Of a DNA stretch of 12,380 nucleotides, positions 1-12,380 are shown piece after piece. Source of the stretch: Bacteroidales bacterium (GTDB lineage: Bacteria > Bacteroidota > Bacteroidia > Bacteroidales > F082). The DNA lies in the NCBI GenBank assembly GCA_017428285.1, contig JAFRRE010000136.1, forward strand, positions 1-12,380, written 5' to 3'. The notes under the pieces are model-generated. The model searched no databases and was not told the DNA's origin. It saw only the letters and a program-made list of their open reading frames with translations. Each line of letters starts with the position of its first letter. Position 1 is the first letter of the stretch. The translations under genes and the position numbers were made by a program.

Positions 1-12
1 ACTCTTCGTTGT
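1..12 (-). rRNA. rrs: 16S rRNA, extreme 5' end only
   Basis: Read on the minus strand, the window ends in ACAACGAAGAGT. This lines up with the start of bacterial 16S rRNA (E. coli AAATTGAAGAGT, which continues as TTGATC...CTGGCTCAG). The rest of the gene would lie beyond the left edge. The call rests on this short match plus the leader, boxA-like site and promoter found upstream on the same strand. The exact mature 5' end is taken by analogy with E. coli. Confidence 0.75.
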
Positions 13-198
13 AGTATTGTACTTCTTGTTTCTGTTCTGAATCTCGGGTTCCGCCTTGATGTTCTCTTTGGTGTTCCTTTGTTAAAAGGTTCCTTGCCTC
101 GCGCGGCTCCCGCCGCGCTGGTCTTGTGCTGGCCTCAGACTTTCAAAGAACTTCGCTTCCGTCTCCCCTCTCTTCGTCCCCGCTTCCCTTCCGAAAGC
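13..198 (-). other. rRNA operon leader (pre-16S) with boxA-like site and hairpin
   Basis: This roughly 185-nt stretch lies between the predicted transcription start and 16S rRNA and has no credible reading frame. Positions 140-151 read GTTCTTTGAAAG on the minus strand, close to the boxA antitermination sequence of rRNA leaders. Positions 101-118 form a perfect 7-bp stem (GCGCGGC/GCCGCGC) with a GGGA tetraloop. The transcript's 5' end can also pair CCCGCTT with AAGCGGG (179-185 with 195-201). AAGGAAC occurs twice just after the GC-rich hairpin. These elements fit the antitermination and RNase processing roles of rRNA leaders. Assignment of each motif is inference from known leaders. Confidence 0.7.
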
Positions 199-203
199 GG
201 GTG

Positions 204-233
204 CAAAAGTACTACCTTTTCCCAAACTGGCAA
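204..233 (-). promoter_or_regulatory. rRNA operon promoter, Bacteroidetes type
   Basis: On the minus strand TTG (231-233) and TACTTTTG (204-211) are separated by 19 bp. This matches the Bacteroidetes housekeeping promoter (-33 TTG, -7 TAnnTTTG). The -7 box runs directly into GCACCCGC, as I recall from Bacteroides rRNA promoters. The 60 bp upstream (240-300) are very rich in A and T, which could act as an UP element. Start of transcription is expected near 196-199. Confidence 0.7.
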
Positions 234-327
234 GCACTTTTTTCATTTATTTTTTATCTTTTCTTTATCACACTGATTGTCAGGAAGAAAAATTTACACA
301 TTTTTTGATTCCACCAAAAAATCAAGC

Positions 328-348
328 CCGTTTTTCAAGATAAAACGG
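328..348 (-). terminator. possible terminator or insulator hairpin upstream of the rRNA promoter
   Basis: CCGTTTT (328-334) and AAAACGG (342-348) form a 7-bp stem with a 7-nt loop. On the minus strand GCTTGATTTTTT follows, a T run 5 nt after the stem. No minus-strand gene lies immediately upstream, so if functional it would block stray transcription into the rRNA promoter. Apart from this, stretch 240-480 holds only AT-rich sequence and a small CCATG/CATGG inverted repeat at 418-432. Confidence 0.3.
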
Positions 349-477
349 ATGTTTTGATGTTTTTTTGCCGACAATTTGGAACCATCTGTCATCGTTTTTG
401 GAGGGATTCTTAGGCTACCATGCCCGACATGGAAGCATTTCGAGCCAGAACACCTTATATAATATATTGGACATCGT

Positions 478-507
478 TAGGCAATTCCGTTTTTATTCTT
501 ACCTTTG
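478..507 (+). promoter_or_regulatory. promoter of the small gene at 541
   Basis: TACCTTTG at 500-507 is an exact TAnnTTTG -7 box. The expected -33 TTG position (478-480) reads TAG, so that half is weak. The box lies about 33 bp before the ATG at 541, giving a leader of roughly 28 nt. It also argues against an upstream TTG start at 505, which would fall inside the promoter. Confidence 0.5.
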
Positions 508-540
508 CGCCATGAACAACATGGTATAAAACGAAATCCT

Positions 541-783
541 ATGCCAAACAAGAATATAAAAGGGAGCCTAAGCGGAATCGTCGACAAAATGAACCAGAAA
601 TATGATGGCCTCATTGGGGTGGGGTTCAATCTGGGTCTTGACCGACGCGTCGTTCCCGTGATGGAAGACGGGGCGGTGGCGGGCTGGAAGATGCAGCGCT
701 GCGAAAACGACGAATGGCTGGATATGGAAGACGGCCCCTTTGAGACCATGGAGGCACTGATAGCGTTTTATAAATGCAATTAA
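541..783 (+). CDS. small hypothetical protein, 80 aa
   Basis: I do not recognise the family. The protein is soluble and acidic in its second half, with no signal peptide, membrane segment or metal-binding motif. It opens with basic residues (MPNKNIKG), then GLIGVGFNLGLDRR, then a tryptophan-containing stretch (GWKMQRC, EWLDMEDGPFE), and ends in a short helix-like segment (TMEALIAFYKCN). ATG 541 is preferred over the in-frame TTG at 505 because a TAnnTTTG promoter box covers 500-507. A five-codon frame, ATG 512 to a TAA, lies in the leader and is probably not meaningful. The gene stands alone between the rRNA promoter and a repeat-rich spacer, and it converges on hsdR. That it is a real gene is supported by the promoter and by clean codon use through the frame. 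Confidence 0.6.
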   Translation: MPNKNIKGSLSGIVDKMNQKYDGLIGVGFNLGLDRRVVPVMEDGAVAGWKMQRCENDEWLDMEDGPFETMEALIAFYKCN

Positions 784-827
784 CCGACAAACTTTTTGAA
801 AGTCAACACAGCTTAGCAGCCGTGTCA

Positions 828-886
828 TGCCCTCCCTTTAATCCCCCGCCCTTCGGGCACCCCCTTAAAAGAGAGAAGGGTGGGCA
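828..886. repeat. nested inverted repeat in the hsdR 3' spacer
   Basis: TGCCCTCCCTT (828-838) pairs with AAGGGTGGGCA (876-886) at 10 of 11 positions. Inside sits a second perfect stem, GCCC-TTC-GGGC (848-858). The structure lies between two convergent genes and could act as a bidirectional terminator. The lack of a clean T run, and its overlap with the 17-bp repeat at 883-899, make an intergenic repeat element equally likely. Confidence 0.45.
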
Positions 887-899
887 TCTATGGCTGCGG
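883..899 (+). repeat. left copy of a 17-bp inverted repeat bracketing the R-M locus
   Basis: GGCATCTATGGCTGCGG occurs here, and its exact reverse complement occurs at 9393-9409. The match stops at both ends of the 17 bp. The two copies enclose hsdR through hsdM and nothing else. It may be an island boundary or two copies of a dispersed intergenic repeat. Confidence 0.55.
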
Positions 900-930
900 C
901 CTTGCATTGTCATCCGTCTTATTATGAAAA

Positions 931-949
931 CCCGACATTGCATATCGGG
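931..949 (-). terminator. possible hsdR terminator
   Basis: On the minus strand CCCGA and TCGGG form a 5-bp stem followed directly by TTTTC, about 40 nt after the hsdR stop codon. A tighter hairpin, GTCCC-GAA-GGGAC, lies at 963-975, 11 nt after the stop, but has no T run. Either or both may end or stabilise the hsdR transcript. Confidence 0.35.
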
Positions 950-986
950 GTGAAATAGGGTCGTCCCTTCGGGACTCGTTGTCCTA

Positions 987-3900
987 TCAGTGTGATTCCG
1001 CCGCCATCAACCCCTCCATACCAAACTCCTGCTCATACTTGACGACTTTAGGCTGGTCGAAGCCACCGTTGAACAAACCGAAGAACTTGGAGAAGAAGTT
1101 CTGCAGTTTCTCCACGACGGTGTTTTTCTTGGCTTCACGGTTGACCGTTCCACCACCAAAGATGGGCATGGGCGGCAAGACCTTGGTAATGGCCAAGCCT
1201 GTCGTGGTCACATAACCGTCTTCAAAAGCCTGCTCCATGAATTTCTTGGTCTCCTTCGGACGCAAATGCTCTTCGTTGATGATGTCCTCCAACTCCTTTT
1301 GGCATTGTTCGTTCACGTATTCGTTCCATTCCTCTGGGATGTCCCTTCCTTCCTTGGGCGTCATGCGCTCGATGAACTGCATGATGAGGTCTCTCTTGTT
1401 GCGCAAGTCGGGGCTGGAGCCGATGGCCTTTTGGATTTTGGCGATGATGGTCTTGTCCTTGCAGTTGTCATCGTGGTACTGCTTCACGAGTTGGAGAATG
1501 TAAGGAATGTCTATTTGGATTCTGTTCACCAACTCCATTTCAAACACGAGGTCGTCTTCGATGTGCTCCTTCTTCCCTCCTTCTTTCTCTTTTCGCAGTT
1601 CGTCATGGATGTCGTTATACCAAGTTAGATAGTCCTGGACATCGAATGGGCTAATGATGACCTTGTCGTCGGTGAACTCATCGAAAGCGGAAAGGAGGTT
1701 CTGCATCTTCAACACGCCGCCAAACAACCTTACGAAGTCTTTCTTTTCTTCCAAAGTGAACTCTGCAGGATTGATCGGCAAGGCATATTTGTCCAACAAC
1801 TGTTCGATGATTTCCTTATAGCCCAACACATGTTTGCCTTTCTCATCCTCATAACCGTAATAATAGTCCTCGAAAGGCCGCATCAATACGATTCCAGCAG
1901 CTTCCTTGTCGCCAAACAAGGCAAACGATTCGTTGGTGGCATCTTCGAGATTGCGGAAACACACGATGTTTCCACAGTCCTTGATGCTGTTCAAGATTCG
2001 ATTGGTGCGGCTGTAGGCCTGCAACAAGCCGTGCATCCTCAGGTTCTTGTCCACCCAAAGCGTGTTGAGGGTCTTGGCATCGAAGCCCGTGAGGAACATG
2101 CTGACCACGACGAGCAGATCCACCTCGCGGTTTTTCATGCGAAGCGAAAGGTCTTTGTAATAGTTTTGGAATTTCTCGCTACTGGTGTCGTATTTGGTGC
2201 CAAACATGCCGTTGTAGTCGGCGATGGCGCTTTCGAGGAATTCGCGCGACGTGCTGTCGAGTTCTTCGGTGTCGCCTTCGTCCTCGTTGCCGAAACCGCC
2301 CGTGTCCTCTTCCGCCTCGTTGGCAGAATAGGTGAATATCGTGGACATTCGCAAACGCTCGGCCTCGGGCCGTTGTTCCATCTGGCGTTTGAATTCCTTG
2401 TAATAGGCCATAGCCATGGGGATGGACTCAACGCAAAGGATGGAGTTGAAGCCACCCAGCTGACTCTTGCGCTTCTCTTCCTGTGTGCGATTGTTCTTGG
2501 CTACTTCGGCCACGTTGGTGATGACGCTATAGGAATAGCGCTGCTGTTGCTTCGTCTTTTGTGGATAGTGCTCAAGGATGTAGGCCACGTTATTGGCGAT
2601 GCGTTGGGGCGAAGCCAAGGCTTCTTCCGTCTCAATGCCCCACACTTTCTTGTCGTCGATGTTGCTCTTGGCTTTCATGGTGCTGATGTAGTCGACTTTG
2701 AACTTCAACACGTTCTTGTCGCGGATGGCATCGATGATGGTGTAGGAATGCAGTTGCTCGCCAAAGGCCTGCTCTGTGGTGCGCAGGTTGGCAAATTTGC
2801 CCGCACCCGCATTCTTGGCGAAGATAGGCGTTCCCGTGAAGCCGAAGATGTAGTATTTCTTGAAGGCCTTGGTAATCATCACGTGCATGTCACCGAACTG
2901 GCTACGATGGCATTCGTCGAAGATGAGCACCACATTCTCGGAAGCGCAGTTGATTTCCTTTTTCTTTTTCAGCAAGGTGGAAAGCTTCTGGATGGTGGTG
3001 ATGATGATCTTCTTGGGGTCTTTGTCTTGATTGTTAAGCTGCCTTTGAAGGATGTTCGACGAGGTGTTGCTGTTGGCACAGCCTTTCTCGAAGTTGTCGT
3101 ATTCCTTCATGGTCTGATAGTCGAGGTCCTTGCGGTCGACGACGAAGAGCACCTTGTCGATGTAGGGCAAAGTAGAGGCTATTTGCGCGGTCTTGAACGA
3201 GGTCAAGGTCTTGCCGCTGCCCGTGGTGTGCCAGATGTAGCCTCCAGCGCGAAGGCTCCCCTGCCATTTGTTCATCGTGGCCTGCTTGATGCGCAGCAAG
3301 ATGCGCTCGGTGGCGGCAATCTGGTAGGGACACATCACGAGGAGGTTCTTGTCGACCGTGAAGACGCAGTATTTGGTCAGCACGTTGAGCAACGAGGCCT
3401 TGGCAAGGAAGGTCTTGGTGAAGTCGCGCAAGTCGATAATGGGGGTGTTTTCGGCATCGGCCCAATAGCTGGTGAACTCAAACGATTGCGACTGGGTTTT
3501 CACCTTCGACTTGCTCTTGTTGACGGCAGCCACGTGGGCAAAACGCGTCGTGTTGCTGTAGTATTTCGTTTCGGTGCCGTTGCTGATGATGAACACCTGC
3601 ACATAATCGTAGAGGCCGCATCCTGCCCAAAACGACTCCCGTTCATAGCGGTTGATTTGGTTGAAGGCTTCCTTCAGAGGCACGCCACGACGTTTCAATT
3701 CGCAATGCACCAGCGGCAAGCCGTTGACGAGAATCGTCACATCATAGCGGTTGGCTTGGGCGCCGCCTTCGGGCACGTATTGGTTGAGCACCTGAACATG
3801 GTTGTTGTGGATGTCCTTCTTGTCGATGAGCTTCACGTTTTGCGAAGTGCCGTCGTCGCGGGTGATGTTAACGATTTCGGTGCGCTGGATGCGTTCGGTC

Positions 3901-4193
3901 TTGTCCTCGATGCTCATTTGGGGCGAGGCGATATGCTGCTCAAAGAGTTGTTTCCACTCCTTATCAGAAAAAGTCAGATGGTTGAGCCGTTCCATCTGCT
4001 GGCGCAGGTTGGCGATGAGTTGCGGCTCGGTGGTGACGTTGACATATTCGTAGCCTTGCTCCACCAGTTGCTTGATGAAGCTGGCTTCCAATGCCGCTTC
4101 GCTTTGGTAGCCATTGTCCTCGCGCGGCAAAGGCTCGTAGTGGGCCATCACCGTGCAATGCTCTTGTTCCGCTATGATGTTGAAGTTTTCCAT
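987..4193 (-). CDS. hsdR: Type I restriction enzyme, R (endonuclease/translocase) subunit HsdR
   Basis: HsdR is the motor and nuclease of a type I R-M complex. It binds the M2S core, pumps DNA using ATP and cuts unmodified DNA far from the target. The protein has 1068 residues, normal for the EcoR124I-like branch. The N-terminal PD-(D/E)XK nuclease has D151, E165 and K167 and a QxxxY motif (Q179, Y183). From memory these numbers are the same as in EcoR124I. The SF2 helicase follows: GSGKT 325-329, DECH 426-429, TGTP 453-456, and a late block with FLTGFDAKTLNT and QAYSRTNR. A long helical C-terminus, expected to contact HsdM/HsdS, ends the protein. All catalytic motifs are intact, so it is predicted active. 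ATG 4193 lies after an AT-rich leader without Shine-Dalgarno sequence. hsdR is separated from the hsdM-hsdS operon by a divergent kinase-like gene and needs its own promoter. Confidence 0.96.
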   Translation of the reverse strand: MENFNIIAEQEHCTVMAHYEPLPREDNGYQSEAALEASFIKQLVEQGYEYVNVTTEPQLIANLRQQMERLNHLTFSDKEWKQLFEQHIASPQMSIEDKTERIQRTEIVNITRDDGTSQNVKLIDKKDIHNNHVQVLNQYVPEGGAQANRYDVTILVNGLPLVHCELKRRGVPLKEAFNQINRYERESFWAGCGLYDYVQVFIISNGTETKYYSNTTRFAHVAAVNKSKSKVKTQSQSFEFTSYWADAENTPIIDLRDFTKTFLAKASLLNVLTKYCVFTVDKNLLVMCPYQIAATERILLRIKQATMNKWQGSLRAGGYIWHTTGSGKTLTSFKTAQIASTLPYIDKVLFVVDRKDLDYQTMKEYDNFEKGCANSNTSSNILQRQLNNQDKDPKKIIITTIQKLSTLLKKKKEINCASENVVLIFDECHRSQFGDMHVMITKAFKKYYIFGFTGTPIFAKNAGAGKFANLRTTEQAFGEQLHSYTIIDAIRDKNVLKFKVDYISTMKAKSNIDDKKVWGIETEEALASPQRIANNVAYILEHYPQKTKQQQRYSYSVITNVAEVAKNNRTQEEKRKSQLGGFNSILCVESIPMAMAYYKEFKRQMEQRPEAERLRMSTIFTYSANEAEEDTGGFGNEDEGDTEELDSTSREFLESAIADYNGMFGTKYDTSSEKFQNYYKDLSLRMKNREVDLLVVVSMFLTGFDAKTLNTLWVDKNLRMHGLLQAYSRTNRILNSIKDCGNIVCFRNLEDATNESFALFGDKEAAGIVLMRPFEDYYYGYEDEKGKHVLGYKEIIEQLLDKYALPINPAEFTLEEKKDFVRLFGGVLKMQNLLSAFDEFTDDKVIISPFDVQDYLTWYNDIHDELRKEKEGGKKEHIEDDLVFEMELVNRIQIDIPYILQLVKQYHDDNCKDKTIIAKIQKAIGSSPDLRNKRDLIMQFIERMTPKEGRDIPEEWNEYVNEQCQKELEDIINEEHLRPKETKKFMEQAFEDGYVTTTGLAITKVLPPMPIFGGGTVNREAKKNTVVEKLQNFFSKFFGLFNGGFDQPKVVKYEQEFGMEGLMAAESH

Positions 4194-4244
4194 ACTTTGG
4201 TCGTTACTGCAAAAACCATAACACCGTTATGTTTTTTTGCTGTG

Positions 4245-4252
4245 CGAAGATA
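4245..4252 (-). promoter_or_regulatory. possible hsdR -7 box
   Basis: TATCTTCG on the minus strand differs from TAnnTTTG at one position and lies about 50 nt before the hsdR ATG. No clear TTG is found 19 bp upstream. A 14-bp direct repeat begins 15 bp upstream of the box, where a repressor could act. Confidence 0.35.
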
Positions 4253-4267
4253 CATATTTCTTCAAAC

Positions 4268-4367
4268 GGCTGAATAATTTCAGCAAAAAATAGTGTGTTG
4301 CAATTGTTTTTTAAAAAATAAATCAGCCGCGAAAGCCAAAAAACATCATAAATGGCTGAATAATTTC
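4268..4367. repeat. 14-bp direct repeats in the hsdR/kinase divergent spacer
   Basis: GGCTGAATAATTTC occurs at 4268-4281 and again at 4354-4367, 86 bp apart. The first copy is part of a short palindrome, CTGAA-TAAT-TTCAG (4270-4283). A related inverted sequence, AATCAGCCGC, lies at 4321-4330. The spacer of 297 bp between the two start codons is AT-rich and otherwise featureless. The arrangement suggests operator sites for a shared regulator, but no regulator gene is visible in the locus. Confidence 0.45.
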
Positions 4368-4467
4368 TAATACAAACAAACTTTATATCTGCCGCAAATA
4401 CTGTCATTTTTCTACTCTGTTTTTATTGTCTCCCTTTATGTTGTGTTTATTATTTCATTTTTATTCG

Positions 4468-4475
4468 TAATTTTG
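4468..4475 (+). promoter_or_regulatory. -7 box of the kinase-like gene
   Basis: TAATTTTG followed by CACACG fits the TAnnTTTG box exactly. The position 19 bp upstream reads TTT rather than TTG. The start of transcription would be near 4482, only some 9 nt before ATG 4491. The box falls inside the longer frame that opens at GTG 4443, so that upstream start is unlikely. Confidence 0.5.
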
Positions 4476-4490
4476 CACACGAAAACCAAT

Positions 4491-5135
4491 ATGGCAATGG
4501 ATTATGACATACCTGAATCGATTCCACAAGGAAGTGACGGAGCGCAAGAAGCGGAAAATCGCCGCATCTCAGAAATCGCCGATGAGCTCAGCCGACTTTG
4601 CCGAATACATGAAGCGCAACCTCGCACTGGCAAAGCAGATGTAACGCCATTTGAAATCGAGCAACGCGAAGCGGAACAACTGGCGAAATCAAAAGGATTC
4701 TGGATTCCAATGATGGATGTGTTTAACCTTGGTGTACCAGGACCAAGCGGACACGAAAACGACACTTACGTTGCAGAGAAGGTTGTTTATAAGGTAAACA
4801 ATTTGCTCAATAACGGTGGTATTGTGGCACTGCTCCAGAAGATATTGCTGCACAATATTCTTTTCCCTGACACTGCGTATGCTTTTTATGGTTTTGCTGG
4901 ATTTGATGGACGAACCGTCCAGCCAGTCATTTACCAGCCCAGGGTGGCCAATGCCAAGCCTGCCAATCAGATTATGATTGACACCTATATGGCTGCTCTT
5001 GGCTTTGAGAAAACTACTGAAGAAGGGCATTTCTCCAATGGAGAATACGAAGTGTGGGACTTAGTTCCCCGAAATGTTTTGGTTGATGTCGAAGGAGATA
5101 TCTTTGTCGTAGATGCCGAGATAAAGCGGGTATAA
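4491..5135 (+). CDS. kinase-like protein of the polyvalent-protein kinase type, 214 aa
   Basis: The C-terminal two thirds look like a compact protein-kinase fold, as I remember it from polyvalent proteins of phages and conjugative elements (Kinase-PolyVal). Visible parts are a loop GPSGHENDTY (84-93), VYKV with likely ATP-binding K101, the segment LLQKILLHN (114-122), hinge-like VQPVIYQP (143-150), catalytic-loop-like DLVPRNVLVD (190-199) and VVDAE (206-210). The spacing D190 to N195 to D208 equals the 5 and 13 residues between the catalytic Asp, Asn and DFG Asp of PKA. Oddities: residues 105-122 hold no acidic residue for the usual salt bridge, and the protein ends six residues after D208, so no activation segment or full C-lobe exists. 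The first 65 residues are charged and helical. The gene runs against its neighbours and stops 13 nt from the hsdS stop. It could modify R-M components or a host target, or be an inactive kinase. Substrate unknown. Confidence 0.75.
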   Translation: MAMDYDIPESIPQGSDGAQEAENRRISEIADELSRLCRIHEAQPRTGKADVTPFEIEQREAEQLAKSKGFWIPMMDVFNLGVPGPSGHENDTYVAEKVVYKVNNLLNNGGIVALLQKILLHNILFPDTAYAFYGFAGFDGRTVQPVIYQPRVANAKPANQIMIDTYMAALGFEKTTEEGHFSNGEYEVWDLVPRNVLVDVEGDIFVVDAEIKRV

Positions 5136-5148
5136 AAGCGCTCTCATC

Positions 5149-6312
5149 TTATTCAAATGTCAGCAACTTATTCCGATAATACTCATACTGCCTCTCCCGC
5201 TGCGCCAGCTGCTGCTCCAAATTGGCGATGCTGGCCTCAAAGGTATCGAGGATGGAGACAATGCGCTGCTGCTCATCTATTGATGGAAGTGGAAAAGCGA
5301 ATTTAGCCATGCTATCTCCTGAAATACGAACAACTTTAGCACCAGTAGCATGAGCAATTTTAAATAAGCGAAAACGATGTGAAGCAAATTGATACGCCAT
5401 AAATTTTCCATTCTGGTCATGATGAAAAATATACGCATCACCGCTAACTGCAATGCTTTCATCTCCCAACCATGCAACTGGCTTTGCAACCCTTTCAGCA
5501 TCTTCAGAAGTTGTAGCTAATACAACATCGCCTTTTACTGCTTTCTTGCTTTTCTTGTATAAACTATCACTTATTTTTGAAACTGTTTCAGTAGCTGACA
5601 ACCCGAATTTTGTATGAATTTGCCCATAATGAATGCAACCAAAACCTTCATCTACAAAATCATTTTTTTGAATTCCACTGCCTCGAATAAATGTACCAAC
5701 CTCTCCCAGCGTCTTCATCACAACTCCCTCTTTCCCTTCCAAATCAAGCAGTTGGTCGCGGTAGTGCTCATATTGCTTGCGGCGCAAGGCGATTTGCTGT
5801 TTCAGGTTCTCGATGGAAGCGGCGAAAGTATCGAGGATGCCGACAATGCGGGTTTGCTCGGAGAGGGAGGGGATGGGGATTGGTAGTTTGTAAAGTCCGT
5901 CCATATCTACTGAAGCAAATCCTCCTTGATGAGTATGCTGTTGACACCATTTATCAACAAGGAACATGTAATAATAGATATACTTCATATTAATACTTTT
6001 CGCAAATCCCTCTTTTGGATAGAAATTGGTAAAACGCTGATTGCAAAGATGTTCAATAGTTATAAGAGCATGTTCACCAATTGTAGCAGATGTGGCTAAT
6101 ATGATAGAATTCGCTTTAAAGAGACCCTTGCCTTTTATTGCTTTCTCGGTTACGTGTAATTTCGAATCACTAAGAATGGTACCACAATCTCGAATATCAT
6201 CCATTTTAAACCATGGAATCGTACCGCCTACCCAAAAGCCATCGTCTTTTGTTGATGGAGTATAACCATTTCGTGTTTCAAAAACTTCACCTAATTTCTT
6301 CCATTCCACCAT
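5149..6312 (-). CDS. hsdS: Type I restriction enzyme, S (specificity) subunit HsdS
   Basis: HsdS recognises the bipartite DNA target and holds two HsdM and the HsdR subunits. The protein has 387 residues in the classic layout: target recognition domain 1 (about 1-145), central helical repeat (about 146-192), domain 2 (about 200-340) and C-terminal helical repeat (about 341-387). The two helical repeats share EQxRIVxILDTF, ASIxNLxQQ and QYExYR, and at DNA level they share GTATCGAGGATG. Domain 1 is more AT-rich than the flanking hsd genes, as is common for exchanged recognition domains. Start: ATG 6312 (MVEWKKLGEV, the usual HsdS opening) lies one nt after the upstream stop. ATG 6327 and ATG 6366 are in frame but overlap the upstream gene. 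The target sequence cannot be read from the protein. No second or silent hsdS copy is in the window. Confidence 0.95.
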   Translation of the reverse strand: MVEWKKLGEVFETRNGYTPSTKDDGFWVGGTIPWFKMDDIRDCGTILSDSKLHVTEKAIKGKGLFKANSIILATSATIGEHALITIEHLCNQRFTNFYPKEGFAKSINMKYIYYYMFLVDKWCQQHTHQGGFASVDMDGLYKLPIPIPSLSEQTRIVGILDTFAASIENLKQQIALRRKQYEHYRDQLLDLEGKEGVVMKTLGEVGTFIRGSGIQKNDFVDEGFGCIHYGQIHTKFGLSATETVSKISDSLYKKSKKAVKGDVVLATTSEDAERVAKPVAWLGDESIAVSGDAYIFHHDQNGKFMAYQFASHRFRLFKIAHATGAKVVRISGDSMAKFAFPLPSIDEQQRIVSILDTFEASIANLEQQLAQRERQYEYYRNKLLTFE

Positions 6313-6313
6313 G

Positions 6314-7528
6314 TCATTTGTCTCCATATTCGTTATCTTCATTTGCATTAAGGCTTGAGGCATCATCTGCCATTGGCAGTTGTTGCTTCTTCCTCAGTTC
6401 CAGTTCGGCCACGGTGCGGTCAACCACCTCTTGCAGTTGGTAGGTAGCAACTCCCAATGGCTTCTGAATATCTTGCAACGACCATTCAACGATTGTCTTT
6501 TTCGCAGTCTTGCAAATCAGCAAGCCGACGGAAGGGTTGTCATCCTTTCCGCGAAGCAGCTTGTCGGCAGCCGTCACATAGAAATTCAGTTTGCCAGCAA
6601 ACTCGGGGACGAACTTCACAGCCTTCAGCTCGATTATGACATATCGGCGTTGGGGAATATGGTAGAACAACAAGTCGGGGAAAAAAGCCGTTTCTTCGTC
6701 CATACGCAATTCCATCTGTCGGCCCACATAGGCGAAGCCTTTGCCAAGTTCAAGCAGAAATGCCGTTACGTTTCTGACCAATGCATTCTCCAAGTCTTTC
6801 TCTTCCTTAATGGCATCCTCGGTTATGAAACTGAGGTCATACTCTTTTTTGAGCAAATCCTTTGCCGACTCACTTTGGGAAACAGGTAATGTCCCGTCGA
6901 AATTGGTAACGGCAAGCCCTTGTTTTCGGAAGAGATGAGCATCCATCTGGTGTTCCAAGCGAGCGCGACTCCATCCTTCCGTTGCCACTTTGTTGATATA
7001 AAACAGTGCTTCTTGAAGCGACTCGCTTTTTGTGAAAATATACACATGGTGGAACCACGGAACAATGCCAAAAATCTCAGGCATCACTAATTCTTCAGCA
7101 GGTTGCTGAAAAATTGCATCAGCAAATTCTTCAGCAGGTTGCTGAAAAAACCGGCTATCACCCTGATGGCATTTTCCAACTCTTTGAAAATAAAACTCAT
7201 ACCAACGTTTCATATAACGAAGATTGGCCGAAGAAAAGCCCTTGGCGGTTGGGAAAATGGCTTTCAAGTCGAGGCTCAGTTGATCGAAGAATCCGCTGCC
7301 CCATTTGCTTTCGGCCTTCTTCGCAACGATGTCGTGCCCCAAATCCCAATAGTAAGCCAGTAATTCACTATTGACTTTGACAGCCGCACGTGCCTGACTA
7401 TGCAAAAAGCGTTGTTTCAGTTCCGAAAGCCATTCTACATAATCCTTATCGGTCACCATGCCATCACGCGAAATGAATGACGGCGTTTTTTGCTGTTCAC
7501 CATTTGTCGTTTTATTGCCCTTAACCAT
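6314..7528 (-). CDS. DUF1016/YhcG-family PD-(D/E)XK nuclease
   Basis: The 404-residue protein has the two parts of the YhcG family. An N-terminal helical region (about 28-165) includes YYWDLGHDIV, WGSGFFDQLS, FSSANLRYMKRWY and VPWFHHVYIF. A C-terminal nuclease (about 190-355) has D285 in FFPDLLFYH and E300-L-K302 in VIIELKAVKF. The active-site residues are present, so nuclease activity is plausible. The family is frequently found beside type I R-M genes, but its role there is not settled. Here it lies in the hsdM-hsdS operon, 15 nt after hsdM and overlapping the hsdS region, so it is co-transcribed. Residues 128-151 carry a duplicated FQQPAEE segment made by a tandem DNA repeat (7089-7149), in a spot where I recall length variation in this family. 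A strong AGGAGG site precedes ATG 7528. Confidence 0.9.
   Translation of the reverse strand: MVKGNKTTNGEQQKTPSFISRDGMVTDKDYVEWLSELKQRFLHSQARAAVKVNSELLAYYWDLGHDIVAKKAESKWGSGFFDQLSLDLKAIFPTAKGFSSANLRYMKRWYEFYFQRVGKCHQGDSRFFQQPAEEFADAIFQQPAEELVMPEIFGIVPWFHHVYIFTKSESLQEALFYINKVATEGWSRARLEHQMDAHLFRKQGLAVTNFDGTLPVSQSESAKDLLKKEYDLSFITEDAIKEEKDLENALVRNVTAFLLELGKGFAYVGRQMELRMDEETAFFPDLLFYHIPQRRYVIIELKAVKFVPEFAGKLNFYVTAADKLLRGKDDNPSVGLLICKTAKKTIVEWSLQDIQKPLGVATYQLQEVVDRTVAELELRKKQQLPMADDASSLNANEDNEYGDK
7089..7149 (-). repeat. two 36-bp-period tandem units, each with a palindrome, inside the DUF1016 gene
   Basis: A 25-bp sequence is repeated exactly at 7089-7113 and 7125-7149, with a period of 36 bp (12 codons), so the frame is kept. 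Each copy contains a perfect palindrome TTCAGCA-ACC-TGCTGAA (7094-7110 and 7130-7146, minus strand). The encoded peptide is FQQPAEE twice. Partial similarity continues downstream of the second exact copy (GAATT...TGATGC). Confidence 0.85.
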
Positions 7529-7536
7529 GTTATAGC

Positions 7537-7542
7537 CCTCCT
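7537..7542 (-). promoter_or_regulatory. strong Shine-Dalgarno site before the DUF1016 gene
   Basis: AGGAGG on the minus strand lies 8 nt before ATG 7528 and directly after the hsdM TGA (7544-7546). None of the other genes here shows such a site, and Bacteroidetes normally rely little on this sequence. It fixes the start codon and may support high or independent translation. Confidence 0.7.
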
Positions 7543-7543
7543 T

Positions 7544-9106
7544 TCAGTTTTTTCCCAATTCCGCAACAATTCCGGCAATCTTTTTGTTCAACGCTTCCCC
7601 TTCGGCAATCAATTTTTCAAGCGTGGCATTCACCTCCACGATGTCAATCACCTCGCGTGTGTCTTTCTGTTCCACATAACTCGAAACAGAGAGGTTGCTG
7701 TCGTTATCCAGCACCTCGCTCGTAGGCACCAAACGCGAGAAGTATTGCTCTTCCTTGCGTTCACTAAAGACCGCGAAGATGTGGTCTTGGTTTTTCTCGG
7801 TCAGCTTGTTCTTGTTGCCGTTCTTCACAAATTCCTTGGAGGCATCGATGAACAAGATGGAATTGTCGGGTCGGCGGCCCTTGCGCAACACGATGATGCA
7901 GGTGGCAATGCCCACACCGAAAAACAGGTTGGCAGGCAACTGGATGATGGTGTCGATATAGTTGTTCTCCACCAACCAATGACGGATGGCTTTCTCCTTG
8001 CCGCCACGATAGAGCACACCAGGAAACTCAACTATGGCAGCCGTGCCGCTCTCGCTCAACGAGCGCAGCATGTGAAGCGTAAAAGCAAGGTCGGCCGTGC
8101 TATCGGGTGCCAACACACCCGGGCCTGCATAACGGTCGTCGTTGATGAGCAAGGGATTCTTGGAGCCTTCCCACGGGATGCTGTAAGGCGGATTGCTCAC
8201 GATGGCATCGAAAGGCTCAAAGTCGCGGTGCAAGGGATTCAGCAAGGTGTCGCCCAAACGGATGTCGAAGTTGTCGTAATTGATGTTGTGCAGAAACATG
8301 TTGATACGACACAGGTTGTAGGTCGTTGGGTTAATCTCCTGGCCGTAGTATTTCAAGGCGGGGTTCTCCTTCCCTATGGTCTTGGAGAACTTCAGCAACA
8401 GCGAACCCGATCCGCAGGCAGGGTCGTAAACCGAACGGATGGTGTGGCCATCGGCGGCGGTAAGGCGTGCCAGCAACTCCGACACCTCTTGAGGTGTGAA
8501 GAACTCGCCGCCACTCTTTCCGGCATTGGAGGCATACATGGTCATCAGAAACTCGTAGGCATCGCCGAAGGCATCGATTTTGTTCTCTTGAAAGTCGTCG
8601 CCAAGGTCCATGTCGCGCACCTTGAGCAGCACTTTCGAAATCAACTTGTTTCGGGTCTTCACGTCGCCGCCCAATTGCGTGCTGTCCACGTTGAAGTCGC
8701 TGAAGAGGCCTTTCATGTCGTCTTCGCTCACCGTACCCATAGCCGAGCCTTCGATGGCCGTAAAGATTTTAGACAAGGTCATGTTGAGGTTGTCGTCGTC
8801 CGTACAGGTCTTGCACACATTCTGGAAGAGTTGTGAAGGCAAGATGAAGAAACCTTTCTCCTCGACCATCTGCTGTCGAGCCGATTCGGCTTCCTCATCA
8901 CTCAATTCGGCATAATCGAAGCCATCCACGCCCGCATCCTTTTGCAGCTTGTTGATGTAATCCGTAAGGTTCTCGGAGATAAAACGATAGAAAAGCGTGC
9001 CTAACACATACGCCTTGAATTCCCAGCCGCCCACTGCACCACGCAGTTCGTCGGCCATACTCCAAATCGTCTTGTGCAGCTCGTCACGTTGTTGTATTGT
9101 TGCCAT
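7544..9106 (-). CDS. hsdM: Type I restriction enzyme, M (DNA adenine methyltransferase) subunit HsdM
   Basis: HsdM transfers a methyl group from S-adenosylmethionine to N6 of adenine in the target chosen by HsdS. In the M2S complex it protects host DNA and senses methylation for HsdR. The 520 residues match the family length. The N-terminal helical domain (about 8-145) contains LYRFISEN-like LFYRFISEN and LFQNV. The Rossmann methyltransferase has GEFFTPQ 200-206, the SAM-binding DPACGSG 228-234 and the catalytic NPPY 305-308. The C-terminus is helical, as expected for contact with HsdS. All motifs are intact. The gene leads the hsdM-DUF1016-hsdS operon. ATG 9106 follows a leader of about 20 nt after a TAnnTTTG box at 9132-9139. 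hsdM stops at 7544-7546, 15 nt before the next gene. Confidence 0.96.
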   Translation of the reverse strand: MATIQQRDELHKTIWSMADELRGAVGGWEFKAYVLGTLFYRFISENLTDYINKLQKDAGVDGFDYAELSDEEAESARQQMVEEKGFFILPSQLFQNVCKTCTDDDNLNMTLSKIFTAIEGSAMGTVSEDDMKGLFSDFNVDSTQLGGDVKTRNKLISKVLLKVRDMDLGDDFQENKIDAFGDAYEFLMTMYASNAGKSGGEFFTPQEVSELLARLTAADGHTIRSVYDPACGSGSLLLKFSKTIGKENPALKYYGQEINPTTYNLCRINMFLHNINYDNFDIRLGDTLLNPLHRDFEPFDAIVSNPPYSIPWEGSKNPLLINDDRYAGPGVLAPDSTADLAFTLHMLRSLSESGTAAIVEFPGVLYRGGKEKAIRHWLVENNYIDTIIQLPANLFFGVGIATCIIVLRKGRRPDNSILFIDASKEFVKNGNKNKLTEKNQDHIFAVFSERKEEQYFSRLVPTSEVLDNDSNLSVSSYVEQKDTREVIDIVEVNATLEKLIAEGEALNKKIAGIVAELGKN

Positions 9107-9131
9107 GAAATATGCTTGTTATTTAAAGCCA

Positions 9132-9139
9132 CAAAGATA
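9132..9139 (-). promoter_or_regulatory. -7 box of the hsdM operon promoter
   Basis: TATCTTTG on the minus strand matches TAnnTTTG exactly and lies 25 bp before the hsdM ATG. No good TTG is present 19 bp upstream, so the -33 element is weak or absent. It would drive hsdM, the DUF1016 gene and hsdS. Confidence 0.6.
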
Positions 9140-9178
9140 CAAAAAACCTGAAATGTTTAGGCTTATACTTTAGTAACA

Positions 9179-9218
9179 ACAAAAATCCTCCTCACAAGTC
9201 CTTCAACTCATGGGGAGG
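9179..9218 (-). terminator. rho-independent terminator of the ftsY-rimO unit
   Basis: On the minus strand CCTCC (9214-9218) and CATGAGT (9206-9212) pair with ACTTGTG (9193-9199) and GGAGG (9187-9191). This gives 12 pairs, two of them G-T, with one mismatch and a 6-nt loop. The stem is followed at once by ATTTTTGTTGTT. It lies about 285 nt after the rimO stop and just before the hsdM promoter, so it would keep housekeeping transcription out of the R-M operon. Confidence 0.6.
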
Positions 9219-9240
9219 CTTCCTTTTGGCATATTTATTT

Positions 9241-9337
9241 TAGGCATTTCCCTCGCCCTTCCTTCGCTCTTCCTTCGCTCTAGCCATACTCAAAGGGTAT
9301 GGTTGAGCGAAGGTAGAGCGAAGAAACACTATGCCTA
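9241..9337. repeat. large imperfect hairpin element, 97 bp
   Basis: Arms at 9262-9289 and 9297-9323 are near-perfect reverse complements over about 27 bp with a 7-nt loop. Their outer edges carry a further exact match, TAGGCAT (9241-9247) with ATGCCTA (9331-9337). The left arm itself contains CCTTCGCTCT twice in an 11-bp period. There is no T run and no coding frame. It resembles a REP- or MITE-like dispersed repeat more than a terminator. Confidence 0.65.
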
Positions 9338-9392
9338 GAGTATGCGAAAGCCCATCCTCTTCTTTCCTTTTTACCGAACAAAGGAGACAAAA

Positions 9393-9409
9393 CCGCAGCC
9401 ATAGATGCC
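9393..9409 (-). repeat. right copy of the 17-bp inverted repeat bracketing the R-M locus
   Basis: CCGCAGCCATAGATGCC is the exact reverse complement of 883-899. It lies 287 bp upstream of the hsdM start codon, between the large hairpin and the rimO 3' region. Flanking bases do not match those of the left copy. Confidence 0.55.
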
Positions 9410-9417
9410 TACTGGCA

Positions 9418-9474
9418 TTCTGCCCATAGATCCCAGCCTCCCCTCATGCCAGCGTGGGGATGACATGGGCAGAA
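9418..9474. repeat. 57-bp nested stem-loop
   Basis: TTCTGCCCAT (9418-9427) pairs exactly with ATGGGCAGAA (9465-9474), and inside it TCCCC (9439-9443) pairs with GGGGA (9456-9460). CATGCCA inside the loop can alternatively pair with TGGCATG downstream. This looks like part of the same intergenic repeat family as the neighbouring elements. Confidence 0.5.
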
Positions 9475-9476
9475 AG

Positions 9477-9502
9477 GTTGGCATGACATAGCTGCTGCCA
9501 AC
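9477..9502 (-). terminator. hairpin directly after the rimO stop codon
   Basis: GTTGGCA (9496-9502 read on the minus strand) pairs with TGCCAAC (9477-9483) across a 12-nt loop, starting one base after the rimO TAG. The following sequence is only weakly T-rich (CTTTCT), so it may protect the mRNA 3' end rather than terminate. Confidence 0.3.
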
Positions 9503-9503
9503 T

Positions 9504-10793
9504 CTAAACTATTTCCCCGTAGCAGTCAAAATAATCCGCTTGGGTGATTTTGACTTGGTAAAAATGGCCGATTTGCAGTTCCCTCTCTGCTGAAATAAGG
9601 ATTTCATCGTCAACTTCGGGGGAGTCGTACTGTGTACGACCGATGTAATAGTCACCTTCGAGTCGGTCTATCAAAACTTTCTCGGTCTTGCCCACACGTT
9701 GGGCATTGATCTCCAACGAGATGTTCTGCTGGATATCCATGAGCTTGTCGACACGCTCCTGCTTCACATCGTCGGGAACATCGTCGGGCATTTCGTAGGC
9801 GGCTGTGCCTTGCTCGGGCGAGAAAGCGAAAACCCCTGCCCTCTCGAAACGCATGTCCTTGAGGAACTGGCAAAGCTCCTCGAAGTCCTCCTCGGTCTCG
9901 CCAGGGAAGCCCACGATGAAGGTGGTGCGGAAAGCGATGTCGGGCACATGCTTGCGGACGTTCTTCACAAAACCGATGGTCTGCTCACGGTCCACACCTC
10001 GGCGCATATCCTTCAGTATATGTGTGCTGATGTGCTGCAATGGCAAATCGATGTAATGGCAGATTTTAGGGTTCTCACGCATCAAATCCAGCAACTCGTC
10101 GGGGAAACCGAGCGGATAGCCGTAATGCAGGCGAATCCACTCGAAGCCGTCGATGTCAGCAAGTGCTTTCACCAGCTCCACAATGTGCGACTGACCATCG
10201 ATGTCGTGACCGTAATAGGTCAAGTCTTGGGCGATGAGAATGAGTTCCTTCACACCCTGCTTGGCCAGGCCTTTGGCCTCTTCGATGAGGTTCTCCATCG
10301 GCACGGAGACATGGCCACCACGGATGAGCGGGATGGCACAAAAGGCACAACGACGGTTGCAGCCTTCAGAAATCTTCAGATAAGCATAATGTTTGGGAGT
10401 GGAAAGCACGCGACGGCTGCAATACTCGGGCTGGACTTCTTCCTTCAGCAGGTCGGCGGCGATGAGGTTGACACTCTCCACACCGTAGAAAGCATCCACC
10501 TCATGGATTTCGGCTTGCAAATCTCTCTTGAACCTTTGGGAAAGGCATCCCGTGACGTACAGTTTCTTAATCTTGCCTTGCTTGCGCAGCTCGGCATATT
10601 CCAAAATGGTGTCAATGGATTCCTCCTGAGCATCACCGATGAAGCCGCAAGTGTTGATGATGACCACATCGGAACGGCGTTCGTCGTCGTGACGGATCAC
10701 ATAACGGTGTTCCAACAAAGCGGCCAGATGCTCCGAGTCGACTTTGTTCTTGGAGCAACCGAGAGTGACGATATTTAGTGAAGGTCTTCGCAT
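9504..10793 (-). CDS. rimO: Ribosomal protein S12 methylthiotransferase RimO
   Basis: RimO is a radical-SAM enzyme that adds a methylthio group to the conserved aspartate of ribosomal protein S12. The 429 residues show the full family layout. The N-terminal UPF0004 domain has the three cysteines of the auxiliary 4Fe-4S cluster: C13 in LGCSKN, C49 in NTCGF and C83 in TGCLSQR. The radical-SAM motif CxxxCxxC is C145, C149, C152, followed by AIPLIRGGHVS. The C-terminal TRAM domain covers about 365-429 (RVGKTEKVLIDR...). LGCSKNKVDSE separates it from the tRNA enzyme MiaB. Start ATG 10793 gives MRRPSLNIVTLGC, normal spacing to C13. It follows ftsY after a 305-nt repeat-filled spacer and is probably read from the same direction, an order I recall from other Bacteroidales. 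Confidence 0.95.
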   Translation of the reverse strand: MRRPSLNIVTLGCSKNKVDSEHLAALLEHRYVIRHDDERRSDVVIINTCGFIGDAQEESIDTILEYAELRKQGKIKKLYVTGCLSQRFKRDLQAEIHEVDAFYGVESVNLIAADLLKEEVQPEYCSRRVLSTPKHYAYLKISEGCNRRCAFCAIPLIRGGHVSVPMENLIEEAKGLAKQGVKELILIAQDLTYYGHDIDGQSHIVELVKALADIDGFEWIRLHYGYPLGFPDELLDLMRENPKICHYIDLPLQHISTHILKDMRRGVDREQTIGFVKNVRKHVPDIAFRTTFIVGFPGETEEDFEELCQFLKDMRFERAGVFAFSPEQGTAAYEMPDDVPDDVKQERVDKLMDIQQNISLEINAQRVGKTEKVLIDRLEGDYYIGRTQYDSPEVDDEILISAERELQIGHFYQVKITQADYFDCYGEIV

Positions 10794-10980
10794 TACACGA
10801 GTTTGTTTTTATATCAAGAATTTGAGAATTAGAGAAGAGAATTCATTTACTGAAGTCTTGCGCCTTTGGCGCGATGAATTTGAGAAGGTCTTCGCATATC
10901 ATGTTTTTTTTCTATCAAGAATTAGAGAAAACAGAGAATTTGCAAACAGAAGTCTTACACCTTCGATTCAGTGAATTTGA
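10780..10980. repeat. diverged tandem duplication of about 100 bp spanning the rimO start
   Basis: Unit A (10780-10883) and unit B (10884-10980) both begin with GAAGGTCTTCGCAT, carry TATCAAGAATT...AGAGAA next, then GAAGTCTT, and end in GAATTTGA. They differ by small insertions and substitutions between these blocks. Unit A includes the first codons of rimO. The 305-nt spacer between rimO and ftsY consists largely of these units plus an inverted remnant. Confidence 0.7.
10847..10897 (-). other. 16-codon upstream frame mimicking the RimO start
   Basis: In unit B the duplicated start codon opens a short frame, MRRPSQIHRAKGARLQ then TAA, sharing MRRPS with RimO itself. It ends 54 nt before the rimO ATG. 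It also covers a GCGCC-AAA-GGCGC hairpin. It may be an accidental product of the duplication or a leader peptide. No promoter or ribosome site supports it. Confidence 0.25.
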
Positions 10981-11076
10981 GTAGAGAAAATCGCAAGCGA
11001 TTTTCTCTCAAATTCCTCATAAATTCAAAAAAGTAGACTCAAAATGAAATAATCTCAAATTCTCTAATTCTTGATA
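10913..11076. repeat. 17-bp inverted repeat in the rimO-ftsY spacer
   Basis: TATCAAGAATTAGAGAA (10913-10929) has its exact reverse complement at 11060-11076. A related direct copy with a short insertion lies at 10812-10836. Together they make three copies of one motif in the spacer, two direct and one inverted, and allow the RNA to fold over about 160 nt. Confidence 0.65.
10973..11015. repeat. strong hairpin between ftsY and rimO
   Basis: AGAGAAAATCGC (10983-10994) and GCGATTTTCTCT (10997-11008) form a perfect 12-bp inverted repeat separated by two bases. The stem extends by GAATTTG/CAAATTC (10973-10979 with 11009-11015) across a 3-nt bulge, for 19 pairs in all. Neither strand shows a following T run, so it may be a processing or attenuation structure rather than a simple terminator. 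Confidence 0.6.
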
Positions 11077-11098
11077 AATATAATATCTTGATGAAACA

Positions 11099-12055
11099 CT
11101 ATTCGAACAGCGAATCCACAAACGCCTTCCGGTCGAAGACCTGCAGGTGGTCGATGCCTTCGCCGACACCGATGTATTTGACCGGAATCTTGAACTGGTC
11201 GGAGATGCCGATGACCACGCCGCCTTTGGCTGTACCGTCAAGCTTGGTCAGTGCGAGAGCGTTGACTTCAGTGGCAGCAGTGAACTGCTTGGCCTGCTCG
11301 ATGGCGTTCTGGCCCGTGGAGGCATCCAATACGAGCAAGATTTCATGTGGAGCGTCAGGAACAACCTTCTGCATGACGGTCTTGATCTTGGTCAGCTCAC
11401 GCATGAGGTTGACCTTGTTGTGCAGACGGCCAGCGGTGTCGATGATGACGACATCGGCATCTTGGGCAACAGCCGACTTCACCGTGTCGAAAGCCACGGA
11501 AGCGGGGTCGGCACCCTGACCTTGTTGAACGCAAGGCACACCTACTCTCTCGGCCCAAATCTGCAACTGGCTGACGGCAGCGGCACGGAAGGTGTCGGAA
11601 GCACCGAGCACGACCTTCTTGCCCGCCTTCTTGAAGTTATAAGCCAGCTTGCCAATGGTAGTGGTCTTGCCCACTCCATTCACGCCGACAACCATAATGA
11701 CATACGGCTTCTTGCCAGCAGGAATGTCGAAGGTGGTGCCATCGCCCGACTCGTTCTCTTGGAGCAAGCCCATAATCTCCTCTTTTAATATGGAGTTAAG
11801 TTCGCTGGTGCCCACATATTTGTCACGCGCAACACGGGCTTGGATGCGGTCGATAATCTTCAAGGTGGTTTCCACACCTACATCCGAAGTGATGAGGATC
11901 TCCTCCAAGTTGTCGAGCACCTCGTCGTCGACAGTCGACTTGCCCATGATGGCTTTGGAGATACGGGAGAAGACACTGGTCTTGGTCTTTTCAAGCCCTT
12001 TGTCGAGGTCTTCCTTTTGTTCTTTTTTACGGGTTAGAAATGAGAATAGGCCCAT
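11099..12055 (-). CDS. ftsY: Signal recognition particle receptor FtsY
   Basis: FtsY is the SRP-receptor GTPase that docks ribosome-SRP complexes at the membrane and hands nascent membrane proteins to the SecYEG translocon. The 318 residues hold a helical N domain (about 20-105) and a GTPase G domain with all motifs: GVNGVGKT 124-131, DTFRAAA 154-160, DTAGR 206-210, TKLD 270-273 and GVGEG 296-300. The acidic A domain of E. coli FtsY is absent. Only a short basic-acidic stretch (LTRKKEQKEDLDK) precedes the N domain, as in many compact FtsY proteins. ATG 12055 (MGLFSFLTRK) is the natural start. The gene lies 150 nt after the DUF4295 gene, from which a strong terminator separates it. No clear TAnnTTTG box is visible between them. 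rimO follows downstream. Confidence 0.96.
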   Translation of the reverse strand: MGLFSFLTRKKEQKEDLDKGLEKTKTSVFSRISKAIMGKSTVDDEVLDNLEEILITSDVGVETTLKIIDRIQARVARDKYVGTSELNSILKEEIMGLLQENESGDGTTFDIPAGKKPYVIMVVGVNGVGKTTTIGKLAYNFKKAGKKVVLGASDTFRAAAVSQLQIWAERVGVPCVQQGQGADPASVAFDTVKSAVAQDADVVIIDTAGRLHNKVNLMRELTKIKTVMQKVVPDAPHEILLVLDASTGQNAIEQAKQFTAATEVNALALTKLDGTAKGGVVIGISDQFKIPVKYIGVGEGIDHLQVFDRKAFVDSLFE

Positions 12056-12060
12056 GATAC

Positions 12061-12123
12061 ATTGTTTAATTGTTGATTGTTTAATCGTTAAATTGTTGAG
12101 GTCCCTGAGCTTGTCGAAGGGCC
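12061..12123. repeat. AT-rich repeat and dispersed-repeat-like hairpin upstream of ftsY
   Basis: Positions 12061-12098 consist of variants of TTGTTTAAT/TTGTTGATTG. Next to it, 12100-12123 reads on the minus strand GGCCCTTCGACAAGCTCAGG plus GACC. This contains CTTCGACAAGCTCAGGG, a sequence I recall as a common dispersed intergenic repeat in many genomes. CCCT/AGGG and GG/CC pair around a single bulged base. The block fills the ftsY leader. Confidence 0.45.
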
Positions 12124-12148
12124 GACTCGTGTCCGATTATACAAACAC

Positions 12149-12183
12149 AAAAAAGCTCTCCCATAAGGTTATGGAAAAGCTCT
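12149..12183 (-). terminator. strong rho-independent terminator after the DUF4295 gene
   Basis: On the minus strand AGAGCTTTTCCATAA and TTATGGGAGAGCTTT pair over up to 15 bp, three of them G-T, around a CC turn, running into a T tract. It lies 23 nt after the DUF4295 stop. It would end the ribosomal-protein transcript before ftsY. Confidence 0.8.
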
Positions 12184-12205
12184 GTTGTTCTGCGGTTAAC
12201 GCAAA

Positions 12206-12358
12206 TTATCTCTTAGCAAGGTACTCCTGCACCTTGTCGGCAGGAACGACGATCTCCTCAAAATAGTAGGCACCAGTCTTCTCAGAACGCTTCATTCTGA
12301 TGATCTTGCTATAGGTCTTGTCCAAGCTACGAAGGGTAGCAACAGCTTTCTTTGCCAT
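12206..12358 (-). CDS. DUF4295 family protein, 50 aa
   Basis: This small basic protein begins MAKKAVATLRSLDKTYSKII and ends in VQEYLAKR, with the motif KTGAYYFEE in the middle. I recognise it as the Bacteroidetes-specific DUF4295 family, which normally follows the genes for ribosomal proteins L28 and L33. Those genes would lie beyond the right edge. The high lysine and arginine content and this position suggest a ribosome-associated role, but no function is established that I know of. The start ATG 12358 and stop TAA 12206-12208 give the typical length. A terminator 23 nt downstream marks the end of the operon. Confidence 0.88.
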   Translation of the reverse strand: MAKKAVATLRSLDKTYSKIIRMKRSEKTGAYYFEEIVVPADKVQEYLAKR

Positions 12359-12380
12359 AACTCTTAATTATTTAATCTCC

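Follow-up and report, generated by a model that had tools for sequence, protein, structure and literature searches.

A solo Kinase-PolyVal gene between hsdS and hsdR of a Bacteroidales type I restriction-modification locus, and the dispersal of its relatives as single genes

The Kinase-PolyVal family was described by Iyer et al. in 2017, whose account already states that the C-terminal lobe is missing and that stand-alone versions exist in Bacteroidetes, places a special glutamate just before a strand and proposes a host modification like that of the T7 kinase (PMC5512222). A literature search found no functional study of Kinase-PolyVal, a name that appeared only as an item in a family list, and no mention of its Pfam model, PF18762. 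A second point of comparison is given by effectors embedded in type I restriction-modification (R-M) loci, such as PrrC in EcoprrI and DarTG2 in the RRDM island, the latter placed between hsdS and hsdR (PMC12255303, PMC3874165). Here we describe a solo Kinase-PolyVal gene at 4491-5135 of a 12,380-nucleotide (nt) stretch of DNA from a Bacteroidales bacterium (contig JAFRRE010000136.1, positions 1 to 12,380; hereafter the window), where its neighbours on either side are hsdR and hsdS of a type I R-M locus. With moderate confidence, we read it as a mobile single-gene conflict kinase that has its own promoter, is parked in a defence slot and stands near R-M genes by opportunity. It shares with the family of Iyer et al. 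the profile, the loss of the C-lobe, the K/D/N/D residues, the Glu (E89) and the Gln (Q149); it differs in being a solo gene, and chromosomal dispersal and an R-M slot are not met in the available part of that paper. Like PrrC and DarTG2, as far as the available parts of those reports go, it is a putative conflict gene between hsd genes, from which it differs in being a kinase, in lying on the opposite strand and in having most of its found relatives outside R-M loci.

The kinase gene and its main elements are the following.
4491..5135, plus strand: solo Kinase-PolyVal gene, matching PF18762; 214 amino acids from ATG 4491, likelier start ATG 4497
4468..4475, plus strand: TAATTTTG, presumed Bacteroidales-type promoter box of the kinase, 29 nt before ATG 4497
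4782..4805, plus strand: ATP-lysine stretch VVYKVNNL with K101
5055..5123, plus strand: catalytic stretch W189 to I211 with D190, N195 and D208

The open reading frame (ORF) is uninterrupted and encodes 212 amino acids when read from ATG 4497, the start common to most relatives of the gene and the more likely one. A preliminary description made from the sequence alone had recognised here a free-standing polyvalent-type kinase and had called for a profile search; PF18762 indeed matched with an E value of 5.2e-23 and 82.2 bits (cut-off 27), over residues 58-212 and profile positions 5-157 of 160. Only this single Pfam domain was found, which sets the chain apart from polyvalent proteins proper, with their several conflict domains per chain. 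Profile searches of NCBIfam and PHROGs gave no match for the kinase, and a sequence search of solved structures returned only WD-repeat designs and MENT chains, which we judged to be chance matches. In a set of 5.8 billion proteins, 1852 of 2053 candidates were relatives at E<=1e-3, and the best 120 listed all carry PF18762. The kinase gene is confirmed as real.

Residue conservation was followed in an alignment of the window copy and those 66 of 80 related loci whose frame is open over 195 amino acids or more (n=67). K101, D190 and N195, three of the four active-site residues picked out in the preliminary description, are kept in 67/67 copies, and the fourth, D208, in 66/67. E89 is likewise invariant (67/67), just ahead of strand 90-94 of the predicted model, and Q149 (67/67) lies inside strand 143-150; in our own reading, these two are the family's Glu before strand 2 and Gln of the last N-lobe strand. 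The chain stops 6 residues past D208, the model's final strand (210-213) being the chain end, and the helix behind K101 holds no acidic residue, both as the preliminary description had noted. The C-terminal kinase subdomain is missing, as the family trait demands. Because the early end and the odd active site are stated for Kinase-PolyVal in the available part of its description (PMC5512222), they are family traits rather than peculiarities of this protein. The structure prediction, which had also been proposed, gave a kinase-like model, whose best structural matches among small kinases are the effector kinases OspG and NleH. Judged from its sequence, the window protein is a minimal protein-kinase-fold enzyme of the Kinase-PolyVal family, with N-lobe and catalytic loop and lacking a C-lobe, which would bind ATP and phosphorylate a protein. 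The dN/dS of the solo kinases, about 0.1, indicates that they are under purifying selection with the active site kept.

The promoter box was assigned by TAnnTTTG, which we take to be the Bacteroidales-type consensus. Of the 66 usable copies (66 of 81; the rest are cut off or start with another codon), 60 have such a box in the 60 nt upstream, whereas 200 base shuffles gave 3.1 on average and 8 at most; its distance to the start is near-constant among copies. A promoter of its own, as claimed beforehand, is likely for the kinase.

Relatives were collected in a scan of one genome per species, in which the best 80 of 88 related loci were used. By its label, the host is a member of the Bacteroidales or Bacteroidetes in 78/80. 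The other two loci, L028 and L038, are two close kinase copies in one metagenome-assembled genome labelled Lachnospiraceae, likely a binning error. Searches of 50,697 phage and 72,556 plasmid records found no relative (E<=1e-5). Carrier genomes hold at most two close copies (>60% identity; 26 genomes, the broken copy of L069 counted as one), besides diverged paralogues of about 30% identity. The neighbours differ among loci and are mostly singletons by clustering, a neighbour cluster of 12 being the antisense shadow of the kinase. More specifically, in kinase pairs that are 90-98% identical in DNA, the common DNA is limited to the gene and short surroundings (-55 to +8 in L045/L050, -31 to +9 in L041/L042 and -135 to +72 in L015/L016), with no real neighbour in common within 5 kb. 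The groups L060/L067/L068 and L037/L040 have a common context and L003/L069 common downstream DNA, and we take these to be vertical relatives for that reason. A full open frame is lacking in 12/78 copies, copies cut by a contig end being excluded; part of these broken frames may be sequencing error. The solo kinase is dispersed as a unit of one gene, roughly 0.7-0.85 kb long, found in unrelated intergenic sites and often bracketed by a direct repeat of local sequence, and its copies decay. This dispersal is not visible from the window alone, and the interpretation given in the preliminary description is partly supported. In a few loci with otherwise unrelated kinases, a gene with an ORF6N domain lies nearby (L007 by Pfam match, L069 and L076 by clustering), possibly another scattered orphan gene.

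We considered whether the kinase might be a plain selfish or neutral hitch-hiker, a single gene devoid of any conflict role that spreads by illegitimate recombination or natural transformation. The single-gene unit, its scattered sites, decaying copies and neighbours of mixed function would all suit such an element; purifying selection, the invariant active site and the kept promoter spacing argue against it, and we hold it to be rather improbable.

Direct repeats between the 300-nt flanks were found for 14/70 kinases and for 4/250 control genes (odds ratio 15, p 3e-7), the controls being further genes of these loci, 450-1000 nt long, with contig edges excluded. A sampled control gave 14/71 versus 3/177 at 300 nt and 28/71 versus 9/132 at 1500 nt. 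Inverted repeats were in no excess (1/71 kinases versus 0/177 controls at 300 nt), and transposases were absent from the 25 families listed of the 117 Pfam families matched in 147 immediate neighbours (one of 148 was excluded for length); on these two grounds we rejected an integron-like or transposon unit. The flanking direct repeats measure 21-156 bp. Repeats from tandem paralogue arrays (L074) or contig ends (the outer repeats of L014 and L016) were excluded, and the related pairs L015/L016, L037/L040 and L003/L069 reduce the 14 loci to about 11 separate cases.

Ten joined repeats were searched in their own genomes, with no more than 40 candidates scored in each. Seven of them come from the 14 loci, the outer 59-bp repeat being used for L010; the others are from L023 and L032, with less than 300 nt of downstream sequence, and L033, whose downstream copy is 480 nt away. 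In 7/10, the repeat is full-length only beside the kinase: L010, L032, L037 and L044 have exactly two copies in the genome, both beside the kinase, and L002, L023 and L033 have two full copies with partial matches of 31-45 nt. Dispersed repeats were set aside as the cause of the direct repeats, an overlap with them being seen only in L003, L041 and L049 of the ten. The L032 repeat is formed by the 3' end of the ORF that lies upstream; by eye, that of L033 resembles a gene end with a hairpin terminator, and that of L037/L040 the 3' end of hsdS. The repeats probably mark insertion. 'Long and variable target duplications' have been reported for R-M genes (PMC3031569). As in the available part of that account, we see gene units with variable direct repeats and no transposase in the unit; here a single kinase gene takes the place of an R-M complex, an empty site did not turn up and the window copy lacks a repeat. 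The pattern resembles insertion with long target duplication, a process that Nobusato et al. reportedly described for R-M genes in 2000, and raises the possibility that this route is also open to a single conflict gene of non-R-M type.

Two loci with repeats showed features of their own. The L003 repeats (3043-3160 and 3864-3981) end in a promoter-like box and belong to a dispersed family that is partially matched in several related genomes. In L037 and L040, nested direct repeats lie at 9200-10850, in an order that would fit successive insertions of a YoeB toxin unit and the kinase before hsdR.

A scan of 2.9 million viral contigs found relatives of the kinase in three loci (L138-L140; identity 42-49%). 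They align from solo residue 6 or 9 to residues 212-214, almost the whole of the solo protein with its N-terminal helices, and sit in open frames of 2843, 3288 and 3258 residues that fill the stretch examined. Since the Pfam model starts well inside the stretch common to solos and phage domains, the two N-terminal helices, which lie outside the model, probably belong to the true domain. The preliminary description had placed such domains mainly in giant proteins, which holds for 3/3 viral relatives; stand-alone Bacteroidetes versions of the family are known from the available part of its description (PMC5512222). In all three phage proteins, an InPase domain (PF18823) follows 43-51 residues behind the kinase domain, with LPD38, LPD14, SNF2 or Eco57I-like matches elsewhere in the chain. 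One phage InPase used as query had no match (best E 2.2) around the solo kinases of the window and the 80 loci, and PF18823 was found in 1/15 carrier genomes, within a 3887-residue frame. The succession of kinase and InPase in 3/3 phage proteins might hint at a pyrophosphate-releasing reaction, and leaves open that the fold would transfer AMP and release pyrophosphate instead of transferring phosphate. In a tree whose branches are very long, the solos group together and the three phage domains stand apart; this tree includes diverged paralogues (L104_par in a wrong frame, L100 doubtful), and only the gap between solos and phage domains is used, cautiously.

These relatives bear on another explanation, a captured counter-defence kinase: a host-takeover domain of a phage or mobile element, freed from its giant protein, would protect the element or resident DNA, for instance by damping restriction. 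The three viral frames of 2843-3288 residues with polyvalent-type domains speak for this, as does the T7-kinase-like host modification proposed for the family (PMC5512222, available part). The relatives amount to only three in the viral collection, with none in the phage and plasmid records mentioned above; moreover, the solos group apart from them, and many copies stand amid unrelated chromosomal genes with their own promoter. We regard this capture as unlikely, though worth keeping in view. Equally doubtful, in our estimate, is a bolder reading that sees the solo kinases as host versions of the phage giant-protein kinase, making up a new class of one-gene anti-phage effectors or decoys; they would spread through insertion with long target duplication and settle time and again in R-M loci, in the window in the hsdS-hsdR slot.

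The R-M locus of the window is EcoR124-like type I, with the kinase on the plus and the hsd genes on the minus strand:
987..4193, minus strand: hsdR, type I restriction subunit of the EcoR124 kind (PF12008, PF18766, PF04313; PADLOC REase_I, 1095 bits)
4194..5148, no strand: cargo slot between hsdR and hsdS, empty in the related locus L118
5149..6366, minus strand: hsdS (PF01420 in two stretches)
7544..9106, minus strand: hsdM (PF02384, PF12161)

Between the stop codons of hsdS and the kinase lie 13 nt. The slot was surveyed in 61 genomes (the host of L037 and 60 relatives), in which an EcoR124-like hsdR start was found in 15 loci (identity 41-76%). An ORF of at least 99 amino acids lies directly before hsdR in 13/15, the hsdS side of L121, L130 and L132 being outside the sequence examined. 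Ten slot ORFs were scanned with Pfam. The ORF of L119 is 23S rRNA IVP-like and those of L120 and L121 look alike; other matches were Fic, metallophosphatase, PIN, PDDEXK_3 and AAA_13, and the ORFs of L125, L126 and L127 had no Pfam match. L123, which is the L037 locus and also has the kinase, holds a YoeB toxin. The slot is empty in L118, which reads hsdS-TAA-T-ATG-hsdR, and L128 has no room for a slot ORF. Since slot ORFs are common in related loci and the kinase is present in 1/15, the hsdS-hsdR gap is a cargo slot and the window kinase one tenant of a known kind of slot. Such slots are a place in type I R-M loci to look for unknown defence genes.

Six of the 80 loci (L010, L024, L037, L040, L059 and L061) have R-M genes no more than 1.5 kb from the kinase, two of these being type IIG; L017 and L026 have further R-M genes at 1.7 and 3.3 kb. 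The queries were the R-M proteins of the window and of near loci, so that other R-M kinds could be missed and the count leans to near matches (6 loci in 215 kb near the kinase; 2, L017 and L026, in 920 kb beyond 1.5 kb). In L061, hsdM, hsdS, kinase and hsdR follow on one strand with gaps of 57 and 13 nt around the kinase, and the kinase is inside or beside type I R-M also in L037, L040 and L010. Directly behind the L033 kinase lies a piece 78% like the end of HsdS, an hsdS remnant, with no other R-M match in 15 kb, as if this kinase had once left an R-M locus; it groups with L037 and L040 in the tree (support 97). Type I adjacency requires 4 changes on a quick-method kinase tree (six rows: window, L037, L040, L033, L061 and L010) versus a shuffle mean of 5.9, with 1/500 shuffles as low, so that it is partly inherited. 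The window's adjacency is separate from that of L037/L040/L033, and the type I link arose several times. In PADLOC, several R-M families match 2 members each among the 147 near neighbours, and no R-M family is among the 25 listed of 68 families for 103 genes 4.5-9.5 kb away; this contrast is only suggestive, as families with fewer members fall outside those listed. A type II methylase and PDC families, not assigned to loci, are also listed for the near neighbours.

A regulator of restriction, proposed in the preliminary description, would be a dedicated partner of the window's R-M system that phosphorylates HsdR, HsdM or HsdS, and the position between hsdR and hsdS, the in-line arrangement of L061 and the type I neighbours in L037, L040 and L010 are what one would expect of it. 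The neighbour survey called for beforehand did find the kinase beside type I hsd genes elsewhere, though R-M genes were near in only 6/80 loci; these counts, the differing types of the adjoining systems and the slot survey led us to set aside an R-M-specific regulator, which we now consider very unlikely. R-M proximity appears to be opportunistic, with no fixed functional pairing.

Of the roles proposed beforehand, an added defence effector and a captured anti-defence module both remain, the former favoured because of the cargo slot and the latter kept alive by the phage giant-protein relatives. In the reading that we prefer, a mobile conflict kinase, the protein would be a latent effector of kinase fold whose expression is driven by the gene's own promoter. 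By analogy with OspG, which depends on a partner protein, the solo kinase might be switched on by a partner derived from the infection and would then modify a protein during phage or mobile-element infection. It would be carried as a single-gene unit, parked in the window in the hsdS-hsdR slot; in related loci this slot is occupied by genes for toxins (YoeB, PIN), Fic, AAA_13 or nucleases. Several points weigh against this: the kinase neighbours are of mixed function, no phenotype is known for a solo kinase, the window copy has no direct repeat (none at E<=1e-4 within 1.6 kb), and no empty site was found, the flanks being not adjacent in relatives of L033 and L041, with L032 giving the gene side only. 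A role in phage or mobile-element conflict nevertheless seems probable, and the solo kinase is a good candidate for a phage-conflict enzyme; its 214 amino acids offer an experimentally small handle on a phage-borne kinase family for which we found no functional study.

The window contains three further genes, the names of the last two being read from Pfam domains:
6314..7528, minus strand: DUF1016/YhcG PDDEXK nuclease, PADLOC candidate PDC-S02 (PF06250, PF17761; PDC-S02 E 1.8e-121)
9504..10793, minus strand: RimO-like radical SAM gene
11099..12055, minus strand: ftsY

The nuclease gene, between hsdM and hsdS and overlapping the start of hsdS, is a second extra gene of the R-M locus.
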